A stretch of DNA of 35,650 nt from Verrucomicrobiota bacterium. GTDB taxonomy: Bacteria > Verrucomicrobiota > Verrucomicrobiia > Limisphaerales > JADLHS01. The stretch spans positions 1 through 35,650 of the forward strand of contig JANXWY010000346.1 of NCBI GenBank assembly GCA_025350905.1, given 5' to 3'. Position numbers and translations under genes: made by a program. Below, piece after piece: positions 1 through 18,900 of this stretch (position 1 is its first letter; each line of letters starts with the position of its first letter). The notes beneath the pieces are model-generated. The model was not told where the DNA came from and did not search any database. It saw only the letters and a list, made by a program, of their open reading frames with translations.

Positions 1-552
1 CCCAATTTCGCCGAGGGTTTGCGGCGGGCCTTGCGGCAGGACCCGGACGTGGTGCTGGTCGGCGAAATGCGCGACTTGGAAACCATTGAAGCCGCCGTCA
101 CCGCCGCGGAAACCGGTCACTTGGTCTTCGGCACCCTGCACACCACCGGCGCGGCCAAGACAATCGACCGGTTGGTGAACGCCTTTCCGGCGAATCAGCA
201 GGAGACGATTCGCATTCAGCTTTCCACGGTGTTGCAGGCGGTGATTTCGCAATTATTGGTGCCCCGCGTGGACAAGCCGGGGCGCGTGGCCATTTTTGAG
301 ATCATGGTGAACACGCCCTCGATTGCCGCTCTCATTCGCGATAACAAGACGTTCCGCCTCCAATCGGACATCCAGACCGGGGCCAAGTACGGCATGGTGA
401 CGCTCGACAGTTTTCTCCTGGAAAAGTACATGGCCGGCTTGATCGCGCGCGAAGAAGTCATCACCAAGGCGCAAGATGCGGTCACCATCCAGCAGAAACT
501 GCAGGAATTGGAACTGGCTCAGGCGGTGGGCGCAGATGGCCCCAAGGCTTGA
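1..552 (+). CDS. pilT: PilT-type twitching/retraction ATPase, C-terminal part (5' end outside window)
   Basis: This is the C-terminal part of a hexameric secretion ATPase of the PilT group, which powers pilus retraction on the cytoplasmic face of the inner membrane. The reading frame is open from base 1 ([18 protein letters not shown]...), so the gene begins upstream. Visible motifs are the Walker B box ([12 protein letters not shown]), the His box ([20 protein letters not shown]) and the PilT-like C-terminal helices with [19 protein letters not shown]. The N-terminal PAS-like domain and the Walker A loop are missing because of the window edge. PilT rather than PilB is favoured because the zinc-binding CxxC pairs of PilB/GspE are absent and the '[14 protein letters not shown]' segment is PilT-typical. 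The stop lies 16 bases before the pilB start, consistent with one operon. I am confident of the family; a PilU-like paralogue cannot be excluded. Confidence 0.93.
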
Positions 553-568
553 CGCGCAACGATTGATT

Positions 569-2278
569 ATGTCCGAAGAAATTTCCAACCCGCTGTTGTC
601 GCTCGTCAAGGAGCAGGGGCTAATCGACGATCTGCAATACGAGGAGGTCGCCGGCGAGGTCAAACGAAGCGGCACCCCCGTGTTCCAGGCGTTGCAGAAC
701 TTCGGGATCATGGACGCGGATGCCATTTTGCAAGCGATGGCGAATCATCTGGGCACGGAAGTTGTGTCGCTGCGCGAAGGTGAGCTGCCGAAGGACGCCT
801 TGGCCGCCGTGCCGGCGAGCACGGCCAAGATGTATCGGTGTCTGCCGGTGGGCTTCCGCGACGGCATGTTGCGGGTGGCCTTTGAGGATCCGCTCGATCC
901 GCAGCGCGTGGATGAACTCGCCTTTGTCGCCAAGAAGGAAATTCAGGTGGTCGTCGCCCATCCGACGGAAATCCAGGCGGGCTTGGACAAATATTACGGC
1001 GAGGAGATGGGGGGCGATGTCTCCGAAATCCTGCGGGAGCTGGGAGGGGACGAAAAAATCGCCGAAGAATCCATGGTGGCCACCGAAACGGACGACGAGA
1101 CGCTCATCGCTGGCCTGGCGAACGAAGCGCCGATTGTGCGTTTCGTCAATCTGGTCTTGTTTCAGGCGGTCAAGGATCGCGCGAGCGACATTCACTTTGA
1201 GCCCTTTGAGACGGAGTTTCGCATCCGTTATCGCGTGGACGGCGCGTTGTATGAAATGTCGCCCCCGCCGAAACACCTGGCGTTGCCCGTCGTGTCGCGC
1301 ATCAAGGTCATGGCGAATCTAAACATCTCCGAGCGACGTTTGCCGCAAGACGGGCGCATCAATCACAAGCTGGGCAACAAGGAGATCGATCTGCGCGTGT
1401 CCACCTTGCCCACCCAATTTGGCGAGTCGGTGGTGCTCCGCGTGCTGGACCGCAGCTCGGTCAATCTGGAACTGGAGTCGCTGGGCTTTCCGAAATACGT
1501 GCACGATTTCGTGTCGGAAGTCATCCTGCGCCCCAACGGCATTTTTGTCGTGACCGGTCCGACCGGGTGCGGCAAGACCACCACGCTTTATTCCTGTTTG
1601 CGCCGGGTCAACACAATCGATTCGAAACTGTTGACGGCGGAGGATCCGGTTGAGTTCGACATCGAAGGCATCATGCAGGTGGCGATCAACGAAGGTTTGG
1701 GTATGACATTCGGCAAGGCGCTGCGTTCCTTCCTGCGGCAGGACCCGGACATCATCATGGTCGGCGAAATGCGCGACTTGGAAACAGCACAAATTGCGAT
1801 CCAGGCTTCGCTTACGGGGCATTTGGTGTTGAGCACGCTGCACACGAATGACGCGCCCGGCGCCGTGACGCGGTTGGTGGACATGGGCACCGAGCCGTTT
1901 CTGGTTTCTTCGACGTTAATGGCGGTGCTGGGACAACGGCTGGTGCGGAAGGTGTGCAAAGATTGCCGGACACCGTTCGAGCCCACGGAAGCGCAACTGG
2001 CCCTTCTGAACCTTTCGCCTCATGACTTGGGGGACAAGGTGTTTTATTACGGACGCGGTTGCTCCACCTGCAACGACACCGGCTACAAAGGCCGCAAGGG
2101 CATTTATGAATTGCTCGTCTGTAGCGACACGATCCGTTCGATGATCACCGAGCGGGCGCCGACCATTGTCTTGCGCCAGAAAGCCGTTGAACTCGGCATG
2201 GTCACGCTGCGGGAGGACGGCTTGCGCAGCATCTTCGATGGTGATACAACCATCGAGGAAGTCATCAAATACACTTAA
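569..2278 (+). CDS. pilB: PilB/GspE-type assembly ATPase
   Basis: This 569-residue hexameric ATPase drives pilus or pseudopilus extension by turning the PilC/GspF platform. The N-terminal MshEN/T2SSE_N-like domain covers roughly residues 10-140 and the ATPase core follows. The Walker A loop is GPTGCGKTT (Lys336), the Walker B region is [14 protein letters not shown], and the His box is [20 protein letters not shown]. Near the C terminus two CxxC pairs (CKDC and CSTC) form the zinc site that marks PilB/GspE and separates it from PilT. The ATG at 569 was chosen because it starts the conserved N-terminal domain; the frame stays open to 476, but that part only overlaps the pilT end. There is no clear Shine-Dalgarno sequence. 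Length and all key residues look intact. Whether it serves a pilus or a type II secretion system cannot be told from this gene alone; the adjacent pilT favours a type IV pilus-like machine. Confidence 0.95.
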
Positions 2279-2290
2279 GGCGAAACCGAT

Positions 2291-3598
2291 ATGCCAAAAT
2301 ACAGTTACGTGGCGATGGACCAAAAGGGGAAGGAGCAGAAAGGTACCATCGAAGCGGCCAGCCAGAATGAGGCGATCGGACGGGTGAAGGAGATGCAATT
2401 GTTCCCGACGAAGATCGTCGAGATGGACAAGGTGCAGGAGAAGTCGGGAAAAAAAGCCCCCACGGGTGGTAAGCCGGCCGGTAAAAAGAAAAAGGGCATC
2501 AACCTTAATATCAAAATCCCCGGTCTCGGGGGCGGCGTTAAGTCCAAGGTCCTCACCACCTTTACCCGGCAATTGGCCACGCTGGTCGACGCCGGGTTGC
2601 CCCTGTTGCGCGGCATGCGGGTACTCCAAAAACAGGAGCGTAGCCCGGTGCTTAAATCCATCCTCGACGACCTCTCGCTCGCCATTGAAGGCGGCAGCAC
2701 TTTCTCGGAGGCGTTGGCCCAGCATCCCAAAGTTTTTAACCGGCTCTATGTCAACATGGTAAAAGCGGGCGAACTCGGCGGTGTTCTGGAAGTGGTGCTG
2801 AACCGGCTTTCCGAGTTTCAGGAAAAGGCCCAGAAGATCAAGGGAAAGGTCGTTGCCGCCATGTTTTATCCCGTCGCCGTAATGGTGGTGGCGGTGGCCA
2901 TCATGGGCGTCCTCGTCGTGATCGTCATTCCAAAATTCAAGGAGGTGTTCGCGGGCTTGGGCGAAGGGCGACCGTTGCCGGCGTTCACCCGGTTCGTTAT
3001 GGCGATCAGTGACGCGGTCCGAAACAATATTATTGTGACTGCGATCTCGATTGTGGCGGTAGTGATCGTCTTCCTCCTCTTCATCAAAACCAAATTTGGG
3101 CGGCACGTTTGGGACAAATTCAAACTAAAAGTGCCCGTGCTGGGTCCGGTGGTCAGCAAAGTGGCCATCTCCCGCTTCACGCGCACACTGGGCACGCTCG
3201 TCAGCAGCGGCGTTCCGATTTTGCAGGCCTTGACCATCGTTCGCGAAACGGCCGGTAATGTCATCATCGCCAATGCTGTCAATGCCGTTCACGAAAGCGT
3301 GAAAGAAGGCGAAACGATTACCGCGCCGTTGGAAGCCTCCGGGGTGTTCCCGCCGATGGTGATTTCCATGGTGGACGTCGGCGAGCAGACCGGCGCGCTC
3401 CCCGAAATGATGATGAAGATTGCCGACAACTTCGATGAAGAGGTGGACAACGCGGTGGCGGCCATGACGTCACTCCTGGAACCGATCATGATCGTGTTCC
3501 TCGCCGTCATCGTCGGCAGCATCGTTATCGCGATGTTTCTACCGTTGATTGACCTGATGAATGGGATGGGTGGTGATGGCGGCGGCGAGAAGGAATAG
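2291..3598 (+). CDS. pilC: PilC/GspF-type inner-membrane platform protein
   Basis: This 435-residue polytopic inner-membrane protein is the platform on which the assembly ATPase acts. It begins with the family's short N-terminal segment (MPKYSYVAMDQKGKEQKG), followed by a Lys/Gly-rich linker at about residues 45-85. Two T2SSF repeats start near FTRQLATLVDAGLPLLRGM (about residue 91) and FTRTLGTLVSSGVPILQAL. Hydrophobic membrane segments are visible at AAMFYPVAVMVVAVAIMG, IIVTAISIVAVVIVFLLF and IMIVFLAVIVGSIVIAMFLP. An AAGG sequence overlapping the pilB stop could serve as ribosome binding site 12 bases upstream of the ATG. It lies 12 bases after pilB and is almost certainly co-transcribed with it. 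The length is normal and nothing appears broken. Confidence 0.95.
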   Translation: MPKYSYVAMDQKGKEQKGTIEAASQNEAIGRVKEMQLFPTKIVEMDKVQEKSGKKAPTGGKPAGKKKKGINLNIKIPGLGGGVKSKVLTTFTRQLATLVDAGLPLLRGMRVLQKQERSPVLKSILDDLSLAIEGGSTFSEALAQHPKVFNRLYVNMVKAGELGGVLEVVLNRLSEFQEKAQKIKGKVVAAMFYPVAVMVVAVAIMGVLVVIVIPKFKEVFAGLGEGRPLPAFTRFVMAISDAVRNNIIVTAISIVAVVIVFLLFIKTKFGRHVWDKFKLKVPVLGPVVSKVAISRFTRTLGTLVSSGVPILQALTIVRETAGNVIIANAVNAVHESVKEGETITAPLEASGVFPPMVISMVDVGEQTGALPEMMMKIADNFDEEVDNAVAAMTSLLEPIMIVFLAVIVGSIVIAMFLPLIDLMNGMGGDGGGEKE

Positions 3599-3685: not shown

Positions 3686-3715
3686 TTGACACTCAACCAT
3701 GCCAAAGTGTAAATA
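3686..3715 (+). promoter_or_regulatory. Candidate sigma-70 promoter of the toxin-antitoxin pair
   Basis: A perfect TTGACA (3686-3691) is followed after 18 bases by TAAATA (3710-3715), which would start transcription near 3722, about 40 bases before the toxin ATG. The tandem operator-like palindromes overlap the -10 region, as expected for an autoregulated toxin-antitoxin promoter. Seen in sequence; promoter activity is inferred. Confidence 0.55.
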
Positions 3716-3728
3716 CATTGTAGTTACA
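3708..3728 (+). promoter_or_regulatory. Tandem TGTA-NN-TACA operator-like palindromes
   Basis: Two copies of the palindrome TGTA-NN-TACA stand 11 bases apart, about one helical turn: TGTAAATACA at 3708-3717 and TGTAGTTACA at 3719-3728. They overlap the probable -10 box. A further half site, TTTACA, lies at 3745-3750. Ribbon-helix-helix antitoxins generally bind short palindromes spaced about one turn apart and repress their own operon, so this is the likely site for the downstream BrnA-like protein. Binding is inferred. Confidence 0.55.
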
Positions 3729-3761
3729 TTGCATGGGCGAATTATTTACAACTGACTCGAA

Positions 3762-4049
3762 ATGGAGTTCGATTGGAACAATCCGCCCTTTGAACTGGGC
3801 AGTTCTTTGACTCAGCGGGAAATAGAAGAGTCTTTTGAAGATCCGTTTGCGATTCGGTTGTTACCGGACTCACAAAGGTTTGCGGTTCAGGCGCGGTTCT
3901 TCAATCTTGGCGCGGCGGCGGGCGGTGACGGCTTTTTCAGCGTTTACCGCACGAATGGGAAGCAAATCCGGGTGATTCACTCCCGACCATTCCAGCCCGA
4001 GGAGCGGTACTTCTATCAGCGGAAGATGGATCAAACCCTTTCGCCTTAG
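3762..4049 (+). CDS. brnT: BrnT-like (DUF497) toxin
   Basis: This 95-residue protein resembles BrnT toxins, RelE-fold ribonucleases that stop translation. The family signs are the N-terminal strand MEFDWNNP, the central 'FEDPFAIRLLPDS' segment, and the C-terminal strands GGDGFFSVYRTNGKQIRVIHSRP ending in PEERYFYQRK. The usual N-terminal K-x-x-x-N-x-x-K-H-G stretch is replaced by PPFELGSSLTQREIEESFED, so this is a divergent subgroup and catalysis is less certain. A CopG/BrnA-like antitoxin follows 50 bases later, in the usual toxin-first order for BrnT/BrnA. A promoter and operator-like palindromes precede it. The ATG at 3762 has no good ribosome binding site. The pair sits between pilus assembly genes and pseudopilin genes, so it looks like an inserted module. 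Confidence 0.75.
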   Translation: MEFDWNNPPFELGSSLTQREIEESFEDPFAIRLLPDSQRFAVQARFFNLGAAAGGDGFFSVYRTNGKQIRVIHSRPFQPEERYFYQRKMDQTLSP

Positions 4050-4099
4050 GCAGCTCGTGGGGCGGCGATTGAGTCAAGTGGTCAAACGGAAACCGGAAG

Positions 4100-4375
4100 A
4101 TGCGCACCATCGCAAATTGGGAAGAAGTGCCGATCTTCGACAGCGAAGCATCGGAAGCAGATTTTTGGTCGGAAAACCGTCCGGATTTGCGGCTCATGGA
4201 AGCGGCGATCGCGAGCGGGAGCGAAGTCTCCGAGTCGGTGACCATTACGCTGCGGATTGATCCCCGCATGTTGGCGCGTATCAAACGCCTGGCCCGGGCC
4301 CGGTATCTGAATTATCAGAGCATGATTAAGCAGTGGTTGAGCGAACGCATGGAACAAGAAGTCCGCGAACGCTGA
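4100..4375 (+). CDS. brnA: BrnA/CopG-like antitoxin with ribbon-helix-helix domain
   Basis: This 91-residue protein is the likely antitoxin and repressor of the BrnT-like toxin. The N-terminal half carries the acidic antitoxin-type segment VPIFDSEASEADFW, thought to wrap the toxin in this family. The C-terminal half is a ribbon-helix-helix DNA-binding domain: strand VTITLRIDP, helix MLARIKRLARARY, then YQSMIKQWLSERMEQE. The 'YQSLIKxWLxERL' ending is typical of CopG antitoxins found with BrnT. A GGAAA about 7 bases upstream of the ATG may act as ribosome binding site. It lies 50 bases after the toxin and only 12 bases before the first pseudopilin gene, so transcription from the toxin-antitoxin promoter probably runs into the pseudopilin run. 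Family assignment is fairly secure; pairing is inferred from position. Confidence 0.8.
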   Translation: MRTIANWEEVPIFDSEASEADFWSENRPDLRLMEAAIASGSEVSESVTITLRIDPRMLARIKRLARARYLNYQSMIKQWLSERMEQEVRER

Positions 4376-4387
4376 CCGGCCGGAAAA

Positions 4388-5059
4388 ATGAAAACAGCAA
4401 ACCCTAATTCTCTTGCTCATCGGCGGGCCTTCACGCTCGTGGAAATGCTCGTGGTCATAGCTGTCATCGCCACACTCGCGGCAATGATTTTTCCCGCCGC
4501 GCACAAACTCAAGGACAACGCCACCAAGCAAAAGGCGCAGACAGAGTTGAAGCTGGTCGCCTCGGCGATTCAGAGCTACAAGTCACAATATGGCCATTAC
4601 CCGCCGGATCATCCGGGCAATCCGATCACCAACGGCCTCTATTTTGAACTGCTGGGCACCGTCCAGAAGGGGTTGAACTTTGAAACCCAAAACGGCGATG
4701 CAAAAATACTTGCCACCTCCGTTGCCGGGACCTTTGGGCAGGGTGGATTTGTGAACTGCACGAAGGGCGGGAGTGATGACAATGGCCAGGCCGCGAAGAA
4801 ATTCTTGGTGGAGTTAAAGCCCACGCAGTACGGTGAGATCGCTCCGGGTTCGAATGTTCGCGTGCTGGCCTGCTCCGTGAAATGGGCGGACATCAATACC
4901 TCACCCATTCCGACCAGCCCCGGCCTAAATCCCTGGCGCTACGTCTCGTCCAATCCCACCAACAACAGCGGCGAATTCGATCTCTGGGTGGACATCATCA
5001 GCGGGGGCAAGACCATCCGCGTCAGCAACTGGAGCGACAAACCCCTCATTGTGCCATGA
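4388..5059 (+). CDS. Prepilin-like protein, GspG-like (first of two)
   Basis: This 223-residue pseudopilin would be inserted in the inner membrane, cleaved by prepilin peptidase and packed into the filament. The leader is short and basic (ending HRRA), and cleavage would fall before FTLVEMLVVIAVIATLAAM, putting the conserved Glu at +5 (Glu19). The residue before the cut is Ala, not the usual Gly. The rest is a soluble domain starting with an amphipathic helix (KDNATKQKAQTELKLVASAIQSYK) and containing the GspG-like YGHYPPDHPGNP. Near the C terminus, NPWRYVSSNP and EFDLWVDIISGG recall the GspG 'DPWG...DxWSxG' calcium-loop area in diverged form. It follows the antitoxin by 12 bases, with GGAAAA just before the ATG. 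It may be a major or minor subunit. Confidence 0.85.
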   Translation: MKTANPNSLAHRRAFTLVEMLVVIAVIATLAAMIFPAAHKLKDNATKQKAQTELKLVASAIQSYKSQYGHYPPDHPGNPITNGLYFELLGTVQKGLNFETQNGDAKILATSVAGTFGQGGFVNCTKGGSDDNGQAAKKFLVELKPTQYGEIAPGSNVRVLACSVKWADINTSPIPTSPGLNPWRYVSSNPTNNSGEFDLWVDIISGGKTIRVSNWSDKPLIVP

Positions 5060-5241: not shown

Positions 5242-5994
5242 ATGAAAAGCTCCCTTTCCCGAACTCGTCGTCTGCATCGGGCGTTCACCTTGATTGAACT
5301 GCTCGTCGTGATTGCCATCATTGCCATTTTAGCGGCGATGTTGTTCCCCGCGCTGGCTAAAGTGAAGGAAAAAGCCCTCAAGGCCAAGGCCAAGCAGGAG
5401 ATGAGCAACATCGTTACCGCCATCACCCAGTTCGAGGCCCATTACGGCCGATTGCCGACCTTGCCTGGCGTGCCGACGGGGGCCAAGGATGTGACCTTTG
5501 GTCTCGGCCCAGCTACGAACTCACTCGCGAACCACACCATCATCGCGACCAATGCCGGTATCATTGCGATCCTCATGGACAAGGAATCGTACGGCAACGG
5601 ACTCGACACGCCGAATAAGGGACATGTGCTGAATCCGCAGCGCCATGCTTTGCTGAATCCAAAACTTACCGACGATCCAAAATCGGCGGGCGTCGGGCCG
5701 GACGGCGAATATCGGGATCCTTGGGGTGTGCCGTATGTCTTTTCGTTGGACTACAGCTTCAACGATCACTGTCGCGATGCTGTGTATTCAAAAACTGCCG
5801 TTTCGAAACAAAATGGCCCGACCGGATTTAACGGGTTGTTTAATCCCAAGACTCCGCCCGGTGACGGCAGCACCGATGACTTTGAGCATACCGGTCAGTT
5901 TATGATCTGGTCGCTGGGGCCGGACAAGAAATCCTCCGACACCGATAAAGCCAACCAAGGCGTCAACAAGGACAACGTCCTCAGCTGGCAGTAA
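5242..5994 (+). CDS. Prepilin-like protein, GspG-type (probable major pseudopilin)
   Basis: This 250-residue pseudopilin has a basic leader (MKSSLSRTRRLHRA) cut before FTLIELLVVIAIIAILAAM, with Glu19 at mature position +5 and Ala at -1. After the amphipathic helix comes the GspG-like FEAHYGRLPT. The C-terminal part keeps the hallmark of GspG major pseudopilins: DPWGVPY (from Asp159), then FMIWSLGPDKK, ending NKDNVLSWQ. This closely parallels the calcium-binding 'DPWGNPY...D.WSLGADG...N.DI.SW' ending of the family. The ATG at 5242 was chosen because it gives a normal leader; the open frame extends to 4882 but would overlap the previous gene and add a non-leader sequence. No clear ribosome binding site is visible. 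Of the six prepilin-like genes here it is the best candidate for the main filament subunit. Confidence 0.88.
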   Translation: MKSSLSRTRRLHRAFTLIELLVVIAIIAILAAMLFPALAKVKEKALKAKAKQEMSNIVTAITQFEAHYGRLPTLPGVPTGAKDVTFGLGPATNSLANHTIIATNAGIIAILMDKESYGNGLDTPNKGHVLNPQRHALLNPKLTDDPKSAGVGPDGEYRDPWGVPYVFSLDYSFNDHCRDAVYSKTAVSKQNGPTGFNGLFNPKTPPGDGSTDDFEHTGQFMIWSLGPDKKSSDTDKANQGVNKDNVLSWQ

Positions 5995-5998
5995 TCTC

Positions 5999-6799
5999 GT
6001 GAAAACTTTGGCGCGCAAATCAGCCTTCACCTTGCTCGAACTGCTCGTGGTCATCGCGATCATCGGCATTCTCGCCGCTATCTCGATGCCAGTGTTCAAA
6101 AACTTGCGGGCCACCGACGCCATGTCCGCCTCCACCCGCCAGTTGCTCGATGATGTGGCGCGGGCCCGACAATACGCCATCAGTCAGCGCACCACGGTTT
6201 ACATGATTTTTTGCCCGACCAATTTCTGGAACGATGCCGCCTACCTCACTCTGCCCCAAACGGAGAAGGACAAGGCGGTCAAGCTCCTCGGCAAGCAACT
6301 CACCGCCTATACTTTTGTGACCTTGCGGAGCGTGGGGGATCAGCCCGGACGAATTTCGCCGCGGTATCTTTCGCCCTGGCACACGCTGCCGGACGGCGCG
6401 GTCGTTCCGCTTTTCAAATTCTCGCCGCGGAATTTTTTCACACCCATTCAGGACCCGCCGTTGCCGACCGTGGCCAATCGCGTGTTTCGCGTTCCGGGCT
6501 TCAGCGTCACTAACACCATCCCGTTCCCTTCCCAAGAAGCCTACGCACCCGGGAAAACGTATGTCTCCGTTCCCTATCTGGCCTTCGATTTCCAGGGCAA
6601 GCTGGTCTCCGGGGTGGATGAATACATCCCCTTGGCGCGCGGCAGCGTGACCTACCCGCGCAACCCGGACAAATCCGCCGCGCAGGCGCTGCCCACCGTG
6701 GCGGAATCGCCCGCGGGCAATAGCACCAACGCCTTCTCGCTCGTTCACATTGACTGGCTGACCGGTCGGGCGCGGATGGAGAAGCAGGAGTTTCCATGA
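5999..6799 (+). CDS. Prepilin-like protein, GspH/FimT-like
   Basis: This 266-residue protein starts at a GTG four bases after the preceding stop. The short leader MKTLARKSA is followed by FTLLELLVVIAIIGILAAISMPVF, with Glu14 at mature +5 and Ala at -1. The segment after the membrane helix, STRQLLDDVARARQYAISQRTTVYMIF, is the typical GspH/FimT pattern (arginine-rich helix followed by a beta strand beginning VYM). The long C-terminal half is beta-rich and ends HIDWLTGRARMEKQ, without a more specific match. In type II secretion and type IV pili, H/FimT-type proteins are minor subunits of the initiating tip. It overlaps the next gene by ATGA, implying coupled translation. Confidence 0.85.
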   Translation: MKTLARKSAFTLLELLVVIAIIGILAAISMPVFKNLRATDAMSASTRQLLDDVARARQYAISQRTTVYMIFCPTNFWNDAAYLTLPQTEKDKAVKLLGKQLTAYTFVTLRSVGDQPGRISPRYLSPWHTLPDGAVVPLFKFSPRNFFTPIQDPPLPTVANRVFRVPGFSVTNTIPFPSQEAYAPGKTYVSVPYLAFDFQGKLVSGVDEYIPLARGSVTYPRNPDKSAAQALPTVAESPAGNSTNAFSLVHIDWLTGRARMEKQEFP

Positions 6800-7668
6800 G
6801 ATTACCCTCGTCATGCCACCAGGTGGGGCGGGAGCTTCAGCCGCCCGCCAATAGTTGGGCGTTGTCCGACGGCGCGTCCGGGGCGACGGGTTCTACCCGC
6901 CGAATCGCTGCCTTCACACTCGTCGAGATTGCGCTCAGCTTGGCGATCATCGGTTTCGCGCTCGTGGCCATCATTGGGGTATTGCCCACCGGTTTGAATG
7001 TGCAGCGCGACAATCGCGAGGAAACCATCATTGTCCACGAGGCGAATTATTTCCTGGATGCCATCCGCAACGGCGCCAAAGGACTGGATGAACTGACCAA
7101 TTCCATTATCCGCATCCGCAACGATTGGACCACTTACAACGCCAACAATCCGGCGGCTTGGAGCAAAGTGACGAGCGACTATGACGAGTATGACCGGACG
7201 AGTTTCCGAGTCACCTCCAGCACGCCACCGCCGGCGGAGTTCAAGCTCACCGATGGTTATCGTATTCTCGGGCTTTTGGTGCGGCCCAAGTTCCAATATC
7301 TCGGGGCGGCCAATATTCGCAGCAACCATGTCGTCGCTTATATGCACGCCCTGAGCGGCGCGGCCTCGGAAAAGTTTCCGGTGGCGGACACAAACGTCCT
7401 CGACCTCGCCTTCAATTACCGGATGATCGTGGAAGTTTATCCGGTGCCGTACGCGGAGACCAATACCGCTTTTGCCCGGGAACTCGGGCCCAACTTGCGG
7501 GAGCTGCGCCTGATCTTCCGTTGGCCGCTGCGGGCGGATGGCACCACCGGCGAAGGCCGCCAGGTATTCCGGACCATGACGGGCGGGCAATTGATGAAGA
7601 CAAATTTTTTAACCCAGCCGCTTTTTTTCTTCAAACCCACCACGTTCGTAAACCTCAAAGCGCCATGA
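6796..7668 (+). CDS. Prepilin-like protein, GspI/PilV-like, long leader
   Basis: This 290-residue minor pseudopilin has an unusually long pre-sequence of 39 residues before the cut site RRIAA/FTLVEIALSLAIIGFALVAIIG, with Glu44 at mature +5 and Ala at -1. The hydrophobic segment FTLVEIALSLAIIGF resembles the I/V class (FTLLEVLVALAI). The mature domain begins with VLPTGLNVQRDNREETIIVHEANYFLDAIRNG and continues with a beta-rich region I cannot place. It overlaps the previous and the next gene by four bases (ATGA). The long leader could instead mean a later start, but no internal start gives a better leader. Assignment to I/V rests on the helix and on its position between H-like and J-like genes. 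Confidence 0.8.
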   Translation: MRLPSSCHQVGRELQPPANSWALSDGASGATGSTRRIAAFTLVEIALSLAIIGFALVAIIGVLPTGLNVQRDNREETIIVHEANYFLDAIRNGAKGLDELTNSIIRIRNDWTTYNANNPAAWSKVTSDYDEYDRTSFRVTSSTPPPAEFKLTDGYRILGLLVRPKFQYLGAANIRSNHVVAYMHALSGAASEKFPVADTNVLDLAFNYRMIVEVYPVPYAETNTAFARELGPNLRELRLIFRWPLRADGTTGEGRQVFRTMTGGQLMKTNFLTQPLFFFKPTTFVNLKAP

Positions 7669-8570
7669 AGACGAACGGTTTTAATCCGGTGGCGGTTCGC
7701 CCGACGAGTTCGCCCGGTCCCCGCGGTGCGTTCTCGCTGATTGAAATCCTGGTCGTGATCGGGTTGCTCTCCATCATTATTCTGGGATTGGTGGCGATGT
7801 TTTCGCAGACCCAACGGGCGTTTCGGTTGGGCTTGTCGCAAGTGGACGTCCTGGAAAGCGGTCGGGCCGTGACGGACATCATGAACCGCGAGTTGTCGCA
7901 GCTGACGCCCTCGCTTGTCAGTACGGGCGTTAACTTCTATGCCAGCCTCGAATCGGTGGCCCCGCTGGTGCAGGAGTTGCCGGGCAATCCTGCGCCGGGC
8001 CGCACCAATCTGATCGAGGAGCTATTTTTCCTGACCAAAGAAAACCAGACTTGGACTGGCATCGGCTATTACGTATTCCCAACCAACGGCGGCGTGGGCA
8101 CTTTATATCGGTACCTCAGCAATAGTCCCTTTGGGCAAAATCCGGCACTGCTTTACAACAGCTTCCACCGCACCGTTGCGGACGCGATCAACCGGAATGT
8201 CTTTACCAACTTCAACCGCATCCTGGATGGCGTGGTGCATTTAAAGGTGCGCGCCTTCAACCCGGACGGCCAATGGATCACGACTAACAATCTGCGTAAC
8301 GTTTTTGTGCGGGAGCCTAGGAATGCGCTTTATGCGGCCGGCGAATCCGAGCTGTACCGTTTTACAAATAACATCGTGCCCGGCTCCGTGGAACTTGAGT
8401 TGGGCGTGCTTGAAGACCGTGCCATCGCCCGAGTGAAAGCCATCCGGGGCGGGACGGTGGCGGAGGACACGCAATCGCGTTCCAATTATCTCGCGCACGA
8501 GTCCGGCAAGGTTCATCTGTTCCGCTTGCGTGTGCCGGTCCGCAACGTGGATCGCACGGCTTATCCATGA
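7665..8570 (+). CDS. Prepilin-like protein, GspJ/PilW-like
   Basis: This 301-residue minor pseudopilin has its ATG inside the stop of the preceding gene (ATGA). The leader ends PGPRGA, with cleavage before FSLIEILVVIGLLSIIILGLVAMF and Glu27 at mature +5. Ala is at -1 and Gly at -2, so the exact cut is uncertain. The following helix, FSQTQRAFRLGLSQVDVLESGRAVTDIMNRELSQL, matches the J/W class, whose members typically read '...GR.a.d.l.reL...'. The rest is a beta-rich soluble domain (LFFLTKENQTWTGIGYYVFP). The frame is open from 7521, but the earlier part is a shadow of the previous gene. Order H, I, J, K is the classical order of minor pseudopilins, which supports the assignment. Confidence 0.83.
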   Translation: MKTNGFNPVAVRPTSSPGPRGAFSLIEILVVIGLLSIIILGLVAMFSQTQRAFRLGLSQVDVLESGRAVTDIMNRELSQLTPSLVSTGVNFYASLESVAPLVQELPGNPAPGRTNLIEELFFLTKENQTWTGIGYYVFPTNGGVGTLYRYLSNSPFGQNPALLYNSFHRTVADAINRNVFTNFNRILDGVVHLKVRAFNPDGQWITTNNLRNVFVREPRNALYAAGESELYRFTNNIVPGSVELELGVLEDRAIARVKAIRGGTVAEDTQSRSNYLAHESGKVHLFRLRVPVRNVDRTAYP

Positions 8571-11500
8571 GGTTTAATTTGAAAACCCCCAACCGCCAAC
8601 CGCCCACCGCCGAGTCCCCAGGCGGCGACCTTCGGCCTCCGCTGGGAAGTGCAAAGTTCGAAGTTCTGCCGTGGGTGTTCACCGGCCCGCACCGCCGCCA
8701 GCGCGGCGTGGCCCTCATCGTCACGGTCATCATGCTGTCCGTGATTACGTTCCTGGCGGTGGCGTTTCTGGCGCTGATGGGCCGGGAAAAAGGTTCCGTG
8801 AAGACCGCGACCGACCAGACCATCGCGAAGCTGGCGTCGGACACCGCGCTCGACCGGGCCAAAGCCGAACTGCTCGCGACCATTCTGGCTACCACCAACG
8901 TTGCGAATTTTGATCTGTTGGTTTCCACCAATTTCGTCAACTGGAATGGCTTTGATCCGGGCGCGGTGGATTTTCGTACCAACGTCAACTATGCCTACCA
9001 ATCAGCCGGCGGCAATCCGGTGCTCACGCCCGCGCAGACGCTGCAAAATCTGGTCAACCTCTTTTACAATCCCCGCCCACCGGTTTTCATCACCAACCGG
9101 CTCACCGGTGGTTATGAATTCCGTTATTACAATGATTTGAATCGGAACGGTCGCTCCGACCGCACGGGCTTCGGGCGGGTGACCAATGAGCTCGGCCAGG
9201 CCGTGCTCACCAATTCCATTCCCGTCACCAATTATCTCGTGGGCGATCCCGAATGGCTCGGGGGGTTGGAGCGCGCTGATTTGCCGCACTCGCCCTCGAA
9301 CCGGTTTGATTTCCGCTACTCGTATCTCGTCGTCCCGGCTGGCAAAACGATCGATGTCAATTTCGTTCACAATGCGGCGCAGGCGGCCCAACGGCAGCGG
9401 ATGAATTTGAATGGCACGGATTTTTTCCGCAACCAGGGCGTGGGTTCCTGGGAGATCAACCTGGCGGCATTGCTCCACGATCTGAACACCAACGCGGTTT
9501 ACGGCTGGGGAAATTTACCCGGCACGCATAGCGGTTATGATTACGACTCCATCAACCCGCTCAACCCGATCCTGCCGCCGATTGGCGGCAACGCTTTCAA
9601 CGATGCCGCCGGGCTCCTCCGCTATCGGCTCAATGGAAATCCAACAAATAATCCCACCTACAGTCCGGAATCCATCAGCGCGCTGTACGGGTTCAACGGC
9701 ACGACTGCGTTTCAAAATGATTTCATTGACGGTTACTCGGACAACGGGGTGTTGTTCTCCACCAACGGCGCTGGCCGACCTTCGTCCGGCTTGACGGTCG
9801 ACAATGATCGCGCGGGTCGGCCGTGGGTCGGCGCGCCGCAGACCAACCATTTTTTCACGCCGCAGGATTTGTTCAACCCGGCCAAGACGGACGTGGCGGG
9901 CGGGGGTAACAAGTTTACCGATCGGCTGACCTGGGCGGGCACCAATGTCTCCACCTACGATCAAAACACCTTTTACCGTTTGCTCAGCGAACTCGGCACC
10001 GACTCCGCGCCGGAAGACCCGGACCGGCTGAACCTCAACTATGTAAATGTGGGCGGTCTTTCCGCCACCAATTTCATATCGTGGCATGATCCGGATTTGG
10101 TTGCGGGTAATGCGCGGCGCGGCATTCCCAGCTTTGGCGTGACGGGCGCCGTGCTCTTCTTCACCAACGCCGCCAATCGTCTCTTGTTGAACTACACCGA
10201 GCAGTGGCTCACGGAGAATCCAACGAACTACATTCTGACCTTCGGGACGAATCAGCCCTTCGGCGTGACGAACATCCCGGTGCTGGTCAGCAACCGCTTC
10301 GCCTACACCCCGGCCGTGCAGCGGGTCCTCCAACTGGCGGCAAACATCTTCGACGCCAGCACCAACCGGCTTTTTGGCGGTGTGGCTATGCCGAGCGTGT
10401 TCCGTCCAATTTTCCGGCGCGACGCGGCCGGCGTTTTTATCACGGGCTACGAGGAAGTTCCCCAGATCGGGCCGAAGAATTTCTATCTAGCAACGCCGGT
10501 GGATATCACCGCGCTGCCGCTGCTGCCGCTGGGAGTTGACCAGCGAATCAATGTTTATGGCGTTCCTTGGTTGATTGGGGCCAAGAAGGGGCTGCCAAAT
10601 TTCAACGAAGTGGCCATGGATTCCACTTTTCAAATCACCCGCAAAATCCAGGTGACGCGCCCGCAAAATTATGCGCGAGGCACGCCCCGAGTTGGGTGGC
10701 AGACCAACATGATGTACGTCATTGGCGTCAGCAATGCCGTCGGCGTCGAAGCCTGGAATTCTTATCATTCCGACTATACGAATTCGGCGGTTTTAGTGAG
10801 GTTAAGCGGCGATGTCCGGATCGCGCTGACCAATGAATTCGGCGTGCTGCGTTATTACGGCTTTGCCTTGAGTAATAGCATTCCCCTTACGAGCGCATCC
10901 AACGTTGTGAACTGGCCCAAAGGTTGGGTCAGCACCACCTCGATTCAACCAAACGCGCGGTCGTTCATCCTTCCGCTGATGACCAACATCGCTTTCCTTC
11001 CGGATGCTGCCTACCGATTTGCCAGCCGGAGCTTCATCTCCAGTTCTAACGCGACGCCGGAGGTTGGTCAGGGTTTCCCCGAACCGCAATGGGGCTTGAG
11101 CAGTCAATTGCGAATGCGGGTGGTGTTGCAGCAAGGTGGTCCGGACGGACCCATCTTGGATTACGTCCAGCTGGGTGGCTTGGATTCCATTCGGAATGTG
11201 GCTGGCGAAATTCCGGAAAAGGCCGGGGAGCCGCTCTTTAGGCCAACCGACGCCGCTGAGTTTAAGCATTTATGGGGGACCAACCGCTTGGGCGGCGGGG
11301 GCGTTCTTAATCTTACCGAGGGGATGAACAATCAGTTCAATATCTCGAGCGGTCAAGTTAATGCCAACAATACGGCGTGGAAATCGTACGGCGCCTTTAG
11401 TCCCGGTGACAAGGATGCGGCCATTGCGGGATTCCAAAACTTTTTGACGGCGGCCTCCTTGCCCTTCGGTCAAACCACCATCCAAGTTCCCTTCACCCCA

Positions 11501-12748
11501 ACCCGAACGCTCACGCGACGATATTCCTGGCAGGCGAACGATCCGCTCGTCCACTACGTCGTGGATGATTTGCAGGATCTCGTACGGAGCACAAAAATGC
11601 CGGACGCCGAGCCACGGCACCTAAAGAATATTGGGAAATTGAATCTTCGCTATGAGCCCTGGGGCGGCCGACCGATCAACTTCGATGCCGACGAAGATCC
11701 ATCTGCCGTAGCCGGCAACAACAAATTCAACCTGGCCCTCAAGGACTCGTTGGTCCGTTCCCCGGATGATTGGGAATTTCCAACCAATGTCTATCCCACG
11801 GTCGGCTGGCTGGGTCGGGTCCACCGTGGCAGCCCCTGGCAGACCATTTATCTTAAGTCTTCAGATGTGGAGACGAACTTGCCGGCCGCCGACCTTAATC
11901 AATGGCAGGCGTGGGCGGGGAATCCCAATTACTTCGATGCCATGCGGACCCGACCAGTGCAGGATCGAACGTTGTTCGATCTATTCACCACGGCCTTTGA
12001 CGAGAATGCCACGCGCGGACAACTTTCCATAAATCAGACGGGTCTGGCGGCGTGGTCGGCGGTACTCAGTGGCGTGGTGGCTCTAACCAACACTTCGTCC
12101 AGCCGGCCAGTTTATGCACCGTGGGTCATCCAGCCAGCGGGGTATTACGATTCGCTGAATCCGAACACCTGGCCGCCGCTGGTGAAAATTGTGGCCGGGA
12201 TAAATCGCACCCGCGCCAACACCAATCTTTTCCCGCACGGGACCTTTCAACACCTAGGGGATATTTTGGCGGTGCCCGAGTTGAGCGTTGGTAACGCGGC
12301 GTTCGTTCCGTCGCCAACGGACCCTAAAAAGACCCAGGGCGATTGGTATTGGACCAACAAGTCTCCCTATTTGGAACTCGGTGGACCTGTCTCGGGCGCC
12401 ATTTCGCCAGTTCCGTCGCCGACGGTCTGGCAGCAAGCTACACTTACCGACGCCGCGTACGAATGGCTGCCGCAACAAATCCTGTCGCTCTTGCGCTTGG
12501 GCGACGCGCGCTTTGTGATCTACGCCTACGGTCAGGCCTTGCATCCCGCCGCCAATTCCGTCCTCACGAGCGGACCATATTTCCAGTTGTGTACCAACTA
12601 CCAGATCACGGCGGAAGTGGCGACGCGCGCCGTGGTGCGCGTCGAGGGCAGTCCGAATCCCGCGCATACGAACCTGTTTTTGCCCGTGGCGAAGCGCTAC
12701 CCGCCGCACGTCGTGGTGGAGAGCTTTAACTATTTGGCTCCGGATTAA
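8567..12748 (+). CDS. Giant GspK/PilX-like prepilin protein (1393 aa)
   Basis: This 1393-residue protein follows the J-like gene by an ATGA overlap and takes the K/X place in the pseudopilin order. After a 47-residue leader ending HRRQRG comes VALIVTVIMLSVITFLAVAFLALMG, a pilin-like membrane helix. It has Gly at -1 and a hydrophobic residue instead of Glu at +5, as in GspK, the pseudopilin known to lack Glu5. The helix continues with GREKGSVKTATDQTIAKLASDTALDRAKAELL. The remaining ~1300 residues are an exported, beta-rich, Asn/Thr-rich domain; GspK is usually about 300-350 residues, so this is roughly four times normal. I recognise no enzyme motif in it. GspK sits at the pseudopilus tip, so the extension may form a large tip structure, an adhesin or a cargo-binding part. 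Gene reality is very secure; role is inferred. Confidence 0.8.
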   Translation: MRFNLKTPNRQPPTAESPGGDLRPPLGSAKFEVLPWVFTGPHRRQRGVALIVTVIMLSVITFLAVAFLALMGREKGSVKTATDQTIAKLASDTALDRAKAELLATILATTNVANFDLLVSTNFVNWNGFDPGAVDFRTNVNYAYQSAGGNPVLTPAQTLQNLVNLFYNPRPPVFITNRLTGGYEFRYYNDLNRNGRSDRTGFGRVTNELGQAVLTNSIPVTNYLVGDPEWLGGLERADLPHSPSNRFDFRYSYLVVPAGKTIDVNFVHNAAQAAQRQRMNLNGTDFFRNQGVGSWEINLAALLHDLNTNAVYGWGNLPGTHSGYDYDSINPLNPILPPIGGNAFNDAAGLLRYRLNGNPTNNPTYSPESISALYGFNGTTAFQNDFIDGYSDNGVLFSTNGAGRPSSGLTVDNDRAGRPWVGAPQTNHFFTPQDLFNPAKTDVAGGGNKFTDRLTWAGTNVSTYDQNTFYRLLSELGTDSAPEDPDRLNLNYVNVGGLSATNFISWHDPDLVAGNARRGIPSFGVTGAVLFFTNAANRLLLNYTEQWLTENPTNYILTFGTNQPFGVTNIPVLVSNRFAYTPAVQRVLQLAANIFDASTNRLFGGVAMPSVFRPIFRRDAAGVFITGYEEVPQIGPKNFYLATPVDITALPLLPLGVDQRINVYGVPWLIGAKKGLPNFNEVAMDSTFQITRKIQVTRPQNYARGTPRVGWQTNMMYVIGVSNAVGVEAWNSYHSDYTNSAVLVRLSGDVRIALTNEFGVLRYYGFALSNSIPLTSASNVVNWPKGWVSTTSIQPNARSFILPLMTNIAFLPDAAYRFASRSFISSSNATPEVGQGFPEPQWGLSSQLRMRVVLQQGGPDGPILDYVQLGGLDSIRNVAGEIPEKAGEPLFRPTDAAEFKHLWGTNRLGGGGVLNLTEGMNNQFNISSGQVNANNTAWKSYGAFSPGDKDAAIAGFQNFLTAASLPFGQTTIQVPFTPTRTLTRRYSWQANDPLVHYVVDDLQDLVRSTKMPDAEPRHLKNIGKLNLRYEPWGGRPINFDADEDPSAVAGNNKFNLALKDSLVRSPDDWEFPTNVYPTVGWLGRVHRGSPWQTIYLKSSDVETNLPAADLNQWQAWAGNPNYFDAMRTRPVQDRTLFDLFTTAFDENATRGQLSINQTGLAAWSAVLSGVVALTNTSSSRPVYAPWVIQPAGYYDSLNPNTWPPLVKIVAGINRTRANTNLFPHGTFQHLGDILAVPELSVGNAAFVPSPTDPKKTQGDWYWTNKSPYLELGGPVSGAISPVPSPTVWQQATLTDAAYEWLPQQILSLLRLGDARFVIYAYGQALHPAANSVLTSGPYFQLCTNYQITAEVATRAVVRVEGSPNPAHTNLFLPVAKRYPPHVVVESFNYLAPD

Positions 12749-12967: not shown

Positions 12968-15900
12968 ATGCGTGCCCGTCCGTTAATCTGGTTGTTGCTC
13001 TGCCTGCTGTTGCTGGCCGGCGGAATATTATTTTGGCAACTGCGGAATCCGTCATCGGTCACCAAGCCCAACCTTCCGCTGGTCACGACGGATCCCGCCA
13101 CGCGCCCGCACCCGGCCGCTGCCCATTCGGCGGTCGTCTCCTTGGCCAACGCGCCGACTTTTTTGAGCGGTCAACCGGCGTCCGTAGCGGCAACCAAAAC
13201 CAATCGGTTTGCGTACCGCCTCAGCAATACGCCCAAGTTGGTCGGTCAGTTATTGCGTGATGATCACGCCATCCTGCTGGAGAATGCCTTGATTGATACA
13301 CGCGCCGCCCTGGGTTTTGCCATTCCGCAGCACCTTCGGGCCGCCGCCGAGCCGGGCAGTTATATCGTGCAAGCGCGCGGTCCGGTGGACGATGCTTTTC
13401 GCGCCGCGCTGACGGCCGCCGGCGGTACGATTGTTTCCTACATTCCGAACAACGCCTATCTGGTCCGTCTTTCCGCCCAGGGCGCGAGCCAGTTGTCGGC
13501 GGCGACCCTCGCGCAAGCCGTGTTGCCCTACGAACCGATTTATAAACTCAAATCCGACCTGCTCTCGCTCACTATGGAACAACGGCCCCTGCCGCCGGAC
13601 GCGAAGTTGAACGTGATGATTTTTGCCGATCTGCGGGCGCAGGTGCTCCAGGAATTGCAACGAAACGGCGACGTAGTTCTAGGCGAATCGCCCTCTGCCT
13701 TCATCGGTCCGGTGTTGACGATTCAGCCGGGAGAAAATTGGACGGCCTTGGCCCAGTTGCCGGGCGTGGCGGTGATGGAGCAGGTTTATCTGCGCGTCGC
13801 CGCGAACGACCTCAGCCGCGTCCGCGTCGCCGTCGCCACTGACTCGGTGGTCACCAATAATTACCTGGATCTCACCGGCGCCGGCGTGCTCGTGAGCGTG
13901 AACGATACCGGGGTGGACCCTACGCATCCGGATCTGACCGGGCGAGTCATCGCTGACTCCGCCGCGAGCCTAGTGGATGACGACGGCCACGGCACTTTTG
14001 TCGCGGGGATTGTCGCGGGGAGCGGCGCGGTCTCGGAAACCGTTTCCAACGCCAGCGGCTCCATCAATCCCGGTGCGCTGGGGCAATATCGTGGCAAGGC
14101 GTCGGGCGCACGGGTCTTTTCCCAGTCGTTATCACTGGGCAGCGGCCCGGTGGCGGACGCCACCTTGCAGGAAACCGCTGCACTAACCAACGCGCTGATC
14201 TCGAACAATAGTTGGCATTACGGCAGTGATAACTCTTACAGCATCGGCGCGGCGAGCTATGACGCCGCGGTGCGCGACGCTTTGCCCCGCCGAACCGGTT
14301 CGCAGCCGGTGTTGTTCGTGTTTTCAGCGGGCAATGACGGCGGCGGCGACGATTCCGGTTCGGGCGGTGAATCGGAAACCATTCTATCTCCCGGCACGGC
14401 CAAGAACGTCATCACCGTCGGCGCGCTTGAACTCGCGCGGGACATCACCAACGCCGTCGTCATCAATTGCACATCCACGAACATTGGCGGCACCAATGTT
14501 ACCGTGTGTGAGACCAATTACCCTTGGCAGGCCATGACGAGCTCGGGCAATCAGGTCGCCTCCTTTTCGAGTCGCGGCAACGTGGGCATCGGTACCGAAG
14601 GCGAGTTTGGCCGGTTTAAGCCGGATCTGGTCGCGCCCGGCACGTTCGTAGTTTCGACGCGCTCGGCTACTTGGGACGAGCGAGCCTACTACAACCCCAC
14701 GGGCCATCTTGTGACCACGTTTAGAGCCCAAGTGGTCGCTCCCAATGCGTTGAACGACCATAGCCTTTACCTGCCGGCCAATGCTGTCGGTTTTACGCTC
14801 CAGTTGTTTCCCAATCAGGATTCGCCGTTGCCCTTCCCAGATTTGCCCATCTTCGTCCGCCGGGCCGATCTCCCGAATCCTCCAACCACGTATGATTTTG
14901 TGAGGACGAATTCAGTTTCCGTACCCCCGGACGGCGGGGGCGTGGGGGCCAGCGTCCGGCAAAACTGGTTTTATAGCATCGGCAATGCGACGACGCAGGA
15001 CGTCAGTTTCTCCTTGGTGCAGGATGTCATCGTCACGAATGAACTCGGCAATTACCTCCAAGTCCTTAGCAATCTCAACAATTCCATCAGCGGTACGAAT
15101 CCGTCGGCGCCGCAATACTATCGTTACGAATCCGGCACGAGCATGTCGGCCGCCGACGTGTCCGGTACGCTGGCGCTGATGCAGCAATTCTTCGAGCAGG
15201 GTTTTGGGCGCACCAACAGTCCGGCCATGATGAAGGCCTTGTTGATTAACGGCGCGCGTTCCGCCGGATCGCTTTATGATTTCGAGGTCCAAAACACGAA
15301 GAATTTTCAGGGCTGGGGTCTGCCGAAGCTCAACAACACGCTGCCGTCAGGCATTACTAACGCCATTAACAACCCGACGGGCGAATCTTCGATGGCCCTG
15401 TTCGACCAATCGCCCGCCCGTGCGCTCAGCACCGGCCAGCAGCAGACGCGGTTGCTGGCCGTGAACGAGGCCGGGACCAACGTGCCGCTCCGCATCACGT
15501 TGGTTTGGACCGATCCGCCCGGCAATCCGGTCGCCGGGGTTAAGTTGGTCAACGATCTCGACCTCGTCGTCACCAACCTCACCACGGGGGAGGTATTTTT
15601 CGGCAACGACATCCCGGTGAGCAGCACCTTTACGTTCCCCTGGGAGACCAACACGCCGCCCAACCTTGATTACATCAACAATGTTGAGAATGTTTACCTC
15701 GCGCCCGCCTTGGGCGCTAATTATTCCATCACCGTGGTCGGCCGCCGGGTGAATGTGAATGCCGTCACCGCGCAGACCAACAATGTCGTGCAGGATTACG
15801 CGCTCGTCATTTCGTCGGGCGACGGCGAAGTCACGAATTCCCTGATCGTCACCGAGCAACCCGTGACGGCCCTCAATGTTCCCTACGTCACCGCCGTGAC

Positions 15901-18900
15901 GAACAGTTTTGCCGGCAACCCGAGCATCTCCGGTTCGATCTTATTGGATCAACATGTCGGCGCGAATACTCCTTTGTTGGGCACCACCAACGGCATGACG
16001 AATCAGTGGCATTTCTACATCGTCACCAACACGACCACGTTTACGAACGCCGCGTTCATCACGTTTCTGCCGCCGGAGTTGGCCGTGCCGCGCATGGCGG
16101 TGCGGAGCGCCGATGCTGAAAACGGCACGTTGCTCGAGGCGGACATTGACCTCTACGTATCCACGGATCCGCGGTTGCTCCTCCTGGACCCCGCCGTGGT
16201 TGCCGCGGCGGACCAATCCCGCAACCGGGGTGGTACCGAGTTCGTCGCCTACAGCAATGCGCCGCCCGGGCAGGTGTATTACGTTGGCGTGAAGTCCGAG
16301 GATCAGATGGCGGCGGAATACGCCTTCTTTGGCGGGTTCAGTTTGGATCCCTTCAGTTCTCAGGATGGGAACGGCAACGTGCTCGTCAACGGCTTTCCGC
16401 TCCCCAACGTCATTGCCGACGGTACGCCGAACCATCCGGGCGGAGCCCTCACGCTCGGGCTGGCGCTCCAACCCCTTACGGTTCGCAGCGTCATCGTGAC
16501 CAATTCTATTTACCTCCAAAATCAGGGCGACATCGTGAGTACTTTAAGCCATGCCCGGACGTTCACCGTATTGAGCAACCATCGCGTTGTCGCCCCGGGT
16601 TTCCACACCTATGTCTATGAAGACAATGACGAGCAAGCCCTGCAACACCCGGATGGTCCTGGTCAATTGCGCGACTTCGTCGGCGAGAGCGGTTTGGGCG
16701 TCTGGCTGCTCACGACGGTGGACAACTCGGGCTCGCAGACCGGCAGCGTCACCGGGCTCAAACTTTTCCTCGCGCCGACGATTAATTCCGGCAGTGGCGA
16801 TAGTTTCTTCACTGTCCAACCGGATCGATTTATTTTTAATGTCGTGGACGTACCGGTCGGCGCGACGAACCTCACCGTGTGCATTGGCAATCTCTCCCTC
16901 GTGCCGGCTCCCTTGGAGCTGTACGTGCGGCGAGACGATTTCCCGAGCCGCACGACCTACGATTACTTCAAGGTGATGAATCCGACGAACGACTGTCTCA
17001 CCATCACGCGCTCCGACATACCGCCGCTCCAGCCCGGCCGGTACTACATCGGCGTATTCAACCCCAGCGGCACGCTGCAGAATATCCGGATGCACATCAC
17101 GGTTGGCGTGGAACCGAGTTCGGTGTTGCCCCTCGTCTTGAACTCGGCGGGCGACCAGCCGTTGCGCGATGATGCGGTGACGGATTCCATCATTACGGTG
17201 ACCAACGACGCCCGGATTCAGCAGGTGGAGGTCGGGCTGCGCATTGACCATCCGCGCGTATCGGATCTGGCCGTCACGCTGATCAGCCCGCGCGGGACAC
17301 GGGTGTTGCTCGCGCAAAATCGCGGAGGCACCAGCACCGAAGGCTTTGGCAGCACAATTAGCGTCACCAACGTCATTCCGGTCTCCACGAACGGCGGTCC
17401 CACGGCCGTGACCAACGTCATCGATACCGGCGCCACGGCGGGCTTTTTGACAATTGACTATGATTTCTTTGACGTCGCCGACCAGATGACCGTTTATTAT
17501 CAGGGCGCGCTGTTGCTGAACAGCGGCATGATTACCGGGCCGGGACGCTTCACCGTGAACTATGGTCCGGGCGCGTCTTCGTTGGTGACGATCATCATGA
17601 ACGAGTTCGGCAACCCCAGCACGAATACCCTTTGGAATTACACCGTCAGTTCCATCAACAACAACTACAGTTACCTGCTATTTACCGAGAACACCAACCT
17701 CACGACCACACCGATCAAATTCGCCCCGCCGCCGTTGACGGCCGCGGCCACCGGACCCGCCGTGAACCTCAGTAATTTTGAGCCGCCGCAACTCCCGGGA
17801 AATTTTGTGGCCCCGGCGATTGTGAATACCTGGACCGTGCTGACGACGAATATGGTGACTGTGGTTACCGGCGGACCGCCGGTGACCGTTGGCGCCCAGT
17901 CGCTGGCGCTACGCGCCGGCCAGCTGAGCAACTCCGTGCCGACCACACCTGGCCGCAGCTACCGGTTGAACTATGATTATCGCTCCTTTGGAAATCTGGA
18001 TGGCATCGTGGCTTGGTGGCCGGGAGAAAATAATGTAATCGACATCGTGGGCGCAAATAATGGTGCGCTACAGGGCGGATCCGGCTACGCGGTCGGAGAA
18101 GTCGGGCAAGCCTTCGTCTTTGGCGGGATCAATGGCGACGTCAAGGTGCCGGCGAGCGCCAGTCTGGATGTGGGCCTCGGAAATGGCTTCGCGATCGAAG
18201 GCTGGATCAACCCGTTCGATATTTCCGTCCCAGGTCCGGTCGTAGAATGGAACAGTGTGAACGGTAACAATTCGGGCATCGGAGTTCATCTAGCCATTAC
18301 CGTTGCCGGCCCGGGGTCGCTTTACGCCAATATTGTTGATACGGCCACCTCCGGGCATTTCATCCAATCTCCGGTCGGGTTGGTCGTCGCCAATGTATTT
18401 CAGCACGTTGCGCTCACCTATGACAAGCCCAGCGGCCTGGCCAGGCTTTATTTGAATGGCGTGGTCGTGGCCCAGCAGAATTTGGGAACTTTTACCCCGG
18501 CGACCGCCTCCGATCTCTACATTGGCACCCGCCCGTCTCCTCCGCCCGTCTATTGGTGGAAAGGAATAATTGATGAAATGACCATTTATAACCGCGCGTT
18601 GCAGGCCACCGAAATCCAGGCGATTTACGCCGCCGGCGCCGCGGGCAAATGCGGCATGCTGGCGCCGCCGGCGGTTTGCGGCCCGGCGTTGGGCGCGCAA
18701 ATATTTGTGCCTGGTCAAGTGACCAACACCATTGTCGGCGCCAACAACTGGAAGCCCGGCGGGTTGATTTTCACCGCGAGCACCAACAACACGACCATCG
18801 AGTTAACCCCGCTGAATCCCAATCAGGATTCTGGCATCCTCCTGGATTCCTTTACCCTCACCGAAGCTTCCGGCGACCGTTACGTCCTGGCGGAAGAATC

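Follow-up and report, generated by a model that had tools for sequence, protein, structure and literature searches.

Most toxin-antitoxin (TA) modules are mobile or patchily distributed. The closest described counterpart of the pair reported here is BrnT/BrnA of Brucella abortus (PF04365 and PF14384); according to a review of the work on Brucella, the RNase activity of BrnT requires D6, E7, K9, R41 and E78 (PMC5086665). For the architecture of the operator, the nearest comparison is relBE of E. coli, whose operator relO (TTGTAATGACAT/TTGTAATTACAA) is bound by RelB RHH dimers on the same helix face, with RelE as co-repressor; in relO, the middle two bases of the left half-site are less important (PMC2812701). 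Verru_Chthon cassettes (TIGR02596, TIGR02598, TIGR02599 and TIGR02600) combine a set of pseudopilins with one very large GspK-like protein. In the literature searched, no regulator is assigned to these cassettes, and nothing relevant was found linking BrnT with Verrucomicrobia or with pseudopilins.

The window, a stretch of 35,650 nt from a Verrucomicrobiota bacterium (contig JANXWY010000346.1), carries a cassette resembling these directly after a two-gene pair, here called T and A (Table 1). As in BrnT/BrnA, T precedes A, T has a BrnT fold, A carries a C-terminal RHH domain and a putative operator lies at the promoter. Unlike BrnT/BrnA, the pair lacks the DExK and KHG residues, is single-copy and vertically inherited, and sits in a fixed operon with pseudopilins. 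We consider T-A to be, with a probability of about 0.7, a domesticated BrnT/BrnA-type pair that acts as a dedicated repressor of pseudopilin cassettes, in cis in Limisphaerales and in trans elsewhere. What was computed is the conservation and linkage of the pair, its fold, the loss of its catalytic motif, the conservation of its operator and the presence of that operator before unlinked cassettes. The layout given by an earlier sequence-only reading holds: both ORFs are present where it placed them, and the 12 bases that it counted between the end of the antitoxin gene and the first pseudopilin are exact (4376-4387, between the A stop codon and the ps1 ATG). The gap between pilC and T is 163 nt. 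Like Verru_Chthon cassettes, the genes after A encode pseudopilins and a very large GspK-like protein, although all the window proteins score under the curated cut-offs; ps3, ps4 and ps5 best match the D, B and C models. Further along the window, at 12968-20551, a 2527-aa ORF contains subtilase-like motifs (GHGTFVAGIVAG, SGTSMSAADVSG) spotted by eye.

Table 1. Features of the T-A and pseudopilin locus (window coordinates).
Feature	Position	Strand	Remarks
pilT-like ATPase, truncated by contig start	19..552	+	ORF list, tblastn synteny in relatives
pilB/gspE-like ATPase	533..2278	+	start codon unsettled; conserved homology from ~569
pilC/gspF-like inner membrane protein	2291..3598	+	PF00482, 213 bits
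-35 box TTGACA	3686..3691	+	16-17 nt 5' of operator in most relatives
putative operator TGTAAATACATTGTAGTTACATTGCATGG	3708..3736	+	two GTAnnTAC palindromes, centres 11 bp apart, at -10 position
T: BrnT-fold pseudo-toxin, 95 aa, proposed co-repressor	3762..4049	+	
A: CopG_antitoxin/BrnA-like, C-terminal RHH domain, 91 aa, proposed DNA-binding repressor	4100..4375	+	
ps1, first pseudopilin, GspG-like	4388..5059	+	N_methyl 28.5 bits
ps2, second pseudopilin	5242..5994	+	
ps3, third pseudopilin, Verru_Chthon D-like	5999..6799	+	TIGR02596 42.7 bits (cut-off 70, not reached)
ps4, fourth pseudopilin, Verru_Chthon B-like	6796..7668	+	TIGR02598 23.5 bits, under cut-off
ps5, fifth pseudopilin, Verru_Chthon C-like	7668..8570	+	TIGR02599 29.6 bits, under cut-off; start codon unsettled
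GspK / Verru_Chthon A-like protein, 1393 aa, cassette end	8567..12748	+	synteny; TIGR02600 just 8.3 bits

The pair is a single-copy, ancient and vertically inherited part of this locus across Limisphaerales. One close, full-length T orthologue per genome (59-98% identity) was found in 44/57 relatives of this order (Verrucomicrobia subdivision 3), in families throughout it, and 380 loci in GTDB genomes encode a relative. Among the best 80 of these 380 loci, A lies directly 3' of T in 78/78 testable cases (77 by BLAST and one read separately) and a prepilin gene directly follows A in 78/78 (two recognised by eye), while pilC is upstream of the pair in 67/76. The gap between A and ps1 is -11 to +25 nt in 74/76 measured loci, with frequent 4-nt overlaps. 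The distance from pilC to T is usually 100-300 nt; in one relative it is ~1.1 kb (L038, G033). T-A distances parallel those of PilB/PilC (Mantel r 0.79, 0/1000 permutations), and no T-A homologues were found among 72,556 plasmid or 50,697 phage records. Purifying selection on both genes is strong and exceeds that on the pseudopilins (dN/dS 0.016-0.09 for T and 0.03-0.08 for A, against 0.12-0.42).

T scores 19.7 bits against the Pfam model BrnT_toxin (PF04365; gathering cut-off 34.5), although an orthologue from another order reaches 45 bits, and the same model searched against the window's own genome gives no match, so standard annotation would overlook T. PDB sequence searches with T or A profiles returned nothing relevant, and no defence-system model matched. 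The AlphaFold model of T (pLDDT 81.5) has a BECR/BrnT fold, which a structure search matched to the BrnT-like toxin 7vd7_A (Z 10.4, 84 residues, rmsd 2.2) and to Brucella BrnT 3u97 (Z 7.2). Profile-profile alignment with the canonical BrnTs of the phylum gives a probability of 97.9%. In a tree, T and its other-order orthologues are split from these canonical BrnTs by a branch with 100/99 support.

Canonical BrnTs of the phylum retain F-x-W-D and a K/H-H-G stretch. WDExK is absent from all 106 unique T proteins, as are WDE and DExK; the usual reading is WNNPP. The counterparts of D6, E7 and K9 are replaced as a motif in 106/106, a loss of three of the five RNase residues, and the KHG motif is missing from all. 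Since R45 and E81, equivalent to R41 and E78 of BrnT, are both kept, some residual RNase activity is possible. On the basis of these residues, T is probably a pseudo-toxin without RNase activity, and the label 'toxin' given to it by the sequence-only reading is doubtful because all orthologues have lost the counterparts of Brucella D6, E7 and K9. A canonical BrnT with FEWDDDK...KHG was also seen beside the domesticated T in the same genus (L064, G002:C169:3353-3562).

Could T still be a working toxin with an altered active site, and T-A a true TA system in which growth arrest and pseudopilin expression are coupled? The retained BrnT fold, the conservation of R45, R75, E81 and Y85 as in canonical BrnT and the invariable pairing of T with A all fit this explanation. 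We nevertheless regard it as unlikely, given that residues conserved in canonical BrnTs (D6, E7, K9 and KHG) are missing from every T, the first three being reported as necessary for RNase activity (PMC5086665). The single-copy, vertical inheritance of the pair and its lack of plasmid or phage homologues in the records above are also unlike most TA modules, which it resembles in having a putative autoregulatory operator at its promoter, as far as Limisphaerales sequences indicate.

A exceeds the cut-off of the CopG_antitoxin model (42 bits against 28) and misses those of the BrnA_antitoxin models (17.1/26.1 and 20.7/60 bits). In its modelled C-terminal half, a short ribbon is followed by helices at residues 55-67 and 72-90. 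On structure superposition, residues 45-91 match the RHH domains of CopASO, PutA and Arc, the best match being CopASO (Z 5.2, rmsd 1.0 over 47 residues). A presumably binds DNA through this domain.

A candidate binding site lies upstream of T, where the promoter-operator has the form TTGACA-N17-GTAAATACATTGTAGTTACATTGCATGG. In a first set of 44 loci, 41 have TTGACA, 16-17 nt and then GTAAATACATTGTANNTACATTGCATGG 5' of T, and 37 of these 41 operator-bearing loci match the -35 box at ≥5/6 positions. In the best 80 of the 380 GTDB loci, a set that partly overlaps the first, the operator occurs within 200 nt upstream of T in 80/80, compared with 1/800 shuffles. Its invariant positions form a pair of GTAnnTAC palindromes spaced 11 bp centre to centre; the palindrome centres themselves vary. 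It is thus built like relO, with tandem TGTAATTACA-type palindromes in the -10 to start region, and we assume that here too RHH dimers bind and the toxin homologue co-represses. The differences from relBE are the antitoxin family, the spacing of the centres (12 bp in relO) and the operon under control, which holds about seven non-TA genes.

In all 12 Limisphaerales genomes searched, the operator occurs exactly once, always at T, with no second copy found. In eight genomes lacking T-A, operator-like sites were no commoner than a reversed-pattern control. One operator-like sequence (GTATGGACAATGTAATTACTTTGTATCC, G027:C227:2523-2550) was seen in a 75% complete genome in which T and A were not found. 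A consensus promoter scan gave a sole match, inside ps1 at 4680, and fewer matches than in shuffles; it overlooks the conserved TTGACA promoter because the -10 of that promoter is not TATAAT-like. Taken as sequence patterns, these sites suggest that the T-A promoter has an autoregulatory operator in Limisphaerales.

Do the pseudopilins share the T-A message? The sequence-only reading took the promoter of the pair as the only clear one upstream of the pseudopilins, and this agrees with what we found: a -35 box and RHH-type operator in 80/80 of the best GTDB loci, followed by short or overlapping gaps between T-A and the pilin genes. A separate pseudopilin promoter was considered and rejected. 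There is no space for one in the 12-nt gap (4376-4387), and none is evident within A, where four-fold sites show no block of suppressed variation. With such short or overlapping gaps, T-A and the pseudopilins are very probably co-transcribed. Upstream, strong terminator-like hairpins occur in 11/30 of the gaps between pilC and T in relatives, compared with 3/90 shuffles; the same test on the window gap detects no such hairpin, so read-through from pilC may occur here.

T-A pairs without the RNase motif are also present in other orders of the class, apart from pilins. There, A is followed by a VanZ-like (PF04892) or miaA gene, often with short gaps or overlaps (L083, L084, L087, L080, L090). 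No operator was found at T in these orders, even allowing up to 8/28 mismatches, so autoregulation is not universal there. A pattern search of the same orders instead found operator-like sites just 5' of large GspK-like genes. We investigated these with a weight matrix built solely from Limisphaerales operators, scanning 350 nt upstream of genes matching the Verru_Chthon A model at a threshold equal to the 99% shuffle level, set on shuffles from genomes with T-A. The idea of a trans-acting regulon was derived from the data and then tested on mostly new cassettes, with the three prompting cassettes included.

An operator site precedes 33/71 Verru_Chthon A genes in the other-order genomes with T-A, compared with 2/29 in genomes without it (Fisher 1.4e-4), the latter drawn mainly from other families, and with 2/95 control genes of the T-A genomes (8e-13). 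Counted by genome, the contrast is weak (15/22 with T-A vs 2/6 without), because the cassettes are paralogous and the genomes with and without T-A belong mostly to different families. The sites concentrate 45-180 nt ahead of the conserved transmembrane segment (KS 4e-6), the placement expected of promoter elements. One Verru_Chthon A-like gene is preceded by two close tandem sites, TATACATTGTATATACG and ACATTGTATATACG (L275, G409). Some relatives in the class (G122, G273; L255, L256, L278, L279) have 18-22 Verru_Chthon A matches per genome, some of them gene pieces, which represents a large expansion of pseudopilin cassettes.

These orders also bear on a second explanation, in which an ancient, class-wide pair has some other housekeeping job, its adjacency to pilins in Limisphaerales is a coincidence and the operator serves autoregulation only. 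The VanZ or MiaA genes, rather than pilins, after T-A in other orders would be expected from such a pair, as would the single operator per Limisphaerales genome. However, in those same orders the operator precedes unlinked pseudopilin cassettes, and in Limisphaerales the linkage to pilins is complete (78/78) though pilTBC adjoins T-A in just 67/76. We think this explanation improbable.

The sequence-only reading had also described the pair as a module lodged in the locus and breaking a single operon. Neither description is borne out: T-A is inherited together with PilB/PilC and is a fixed, order-wide part of the locus with its own conserved promoter-operator. Relatives with the locus but not the module do exist, in that three have a complete pil-pseudopilin locus in which ps1 directly follows pilC. 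They sit at three separate spots among carriers in an unrooted PilB+PilC tree. Although the unrooted tree alone fits either loss or gain, this scatter makes the rare absences look like loss, a derived state. At least three Limisphaerales lineages retain the full locus without the pair, which is therefore dispensable. Insertion of a mobile BrnTA module between pilC and the pseudopilins, as its homology to BrnT/BrnA and the three relatives without it might suggest, is very improbable and was rejected on its distribution, fixed synteny, vertical signal, absences in three separate places and lack of plasmid or phage relatives.

Under our preferred reading of T-A as a domesticated repressor, A would bind the tandem GTAnnTAC operator, which overlaps the -10 region, through its C-terminal RHH domain, and T would bind A and serve as its co-repressor, like RelE with RelB. 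Within Limisphaerales, the operon under their control (T-A-ps1...ps5-big) would begin with T and A themselves, so that the pair would repress itself and the pseudopilins together and pseudopilin expression would follow the state of T-A. Elsewhere in the class, T-A would act in trans on the promoters of Verru_Chthon cassettes. Loss of the RNase residues would take away the cost of free T. The sequence-only reading had suggested that pseudopilin expression may rise under stress, a suggestion that gained no support; antitoxin proteolysis under stress would be one purely hypothetical candidate for the signal that relieves repression. More speculatively, T may be a sensor rather than a spent toxin, responding to conditions in the secretion or pilus apparatus (unassembled pseudopilins or an ATPase, for instance) or to a small ligand and thereby tuning A on pseudopilin promoters; pseudo-toxin/RHH pairs of this sort might then constitute a class of two-protein regulators in Verrucomicrobia, each genome offering many target cassettes.

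T-A is a clear case of a TA pair that no longer behaves as one, across a whole order and with its RNase residues lost. It has apparently been rewired into a regulator of secretion or pilus genes, acting in cis in Limisphaerales and in trans in other orders. In the literature searched, it is the first candidate regulator of the numerous Verru_Chthon pseudopilin cassettes, and its operator motif offers a means of predicting the Verru_Chthon regulon.
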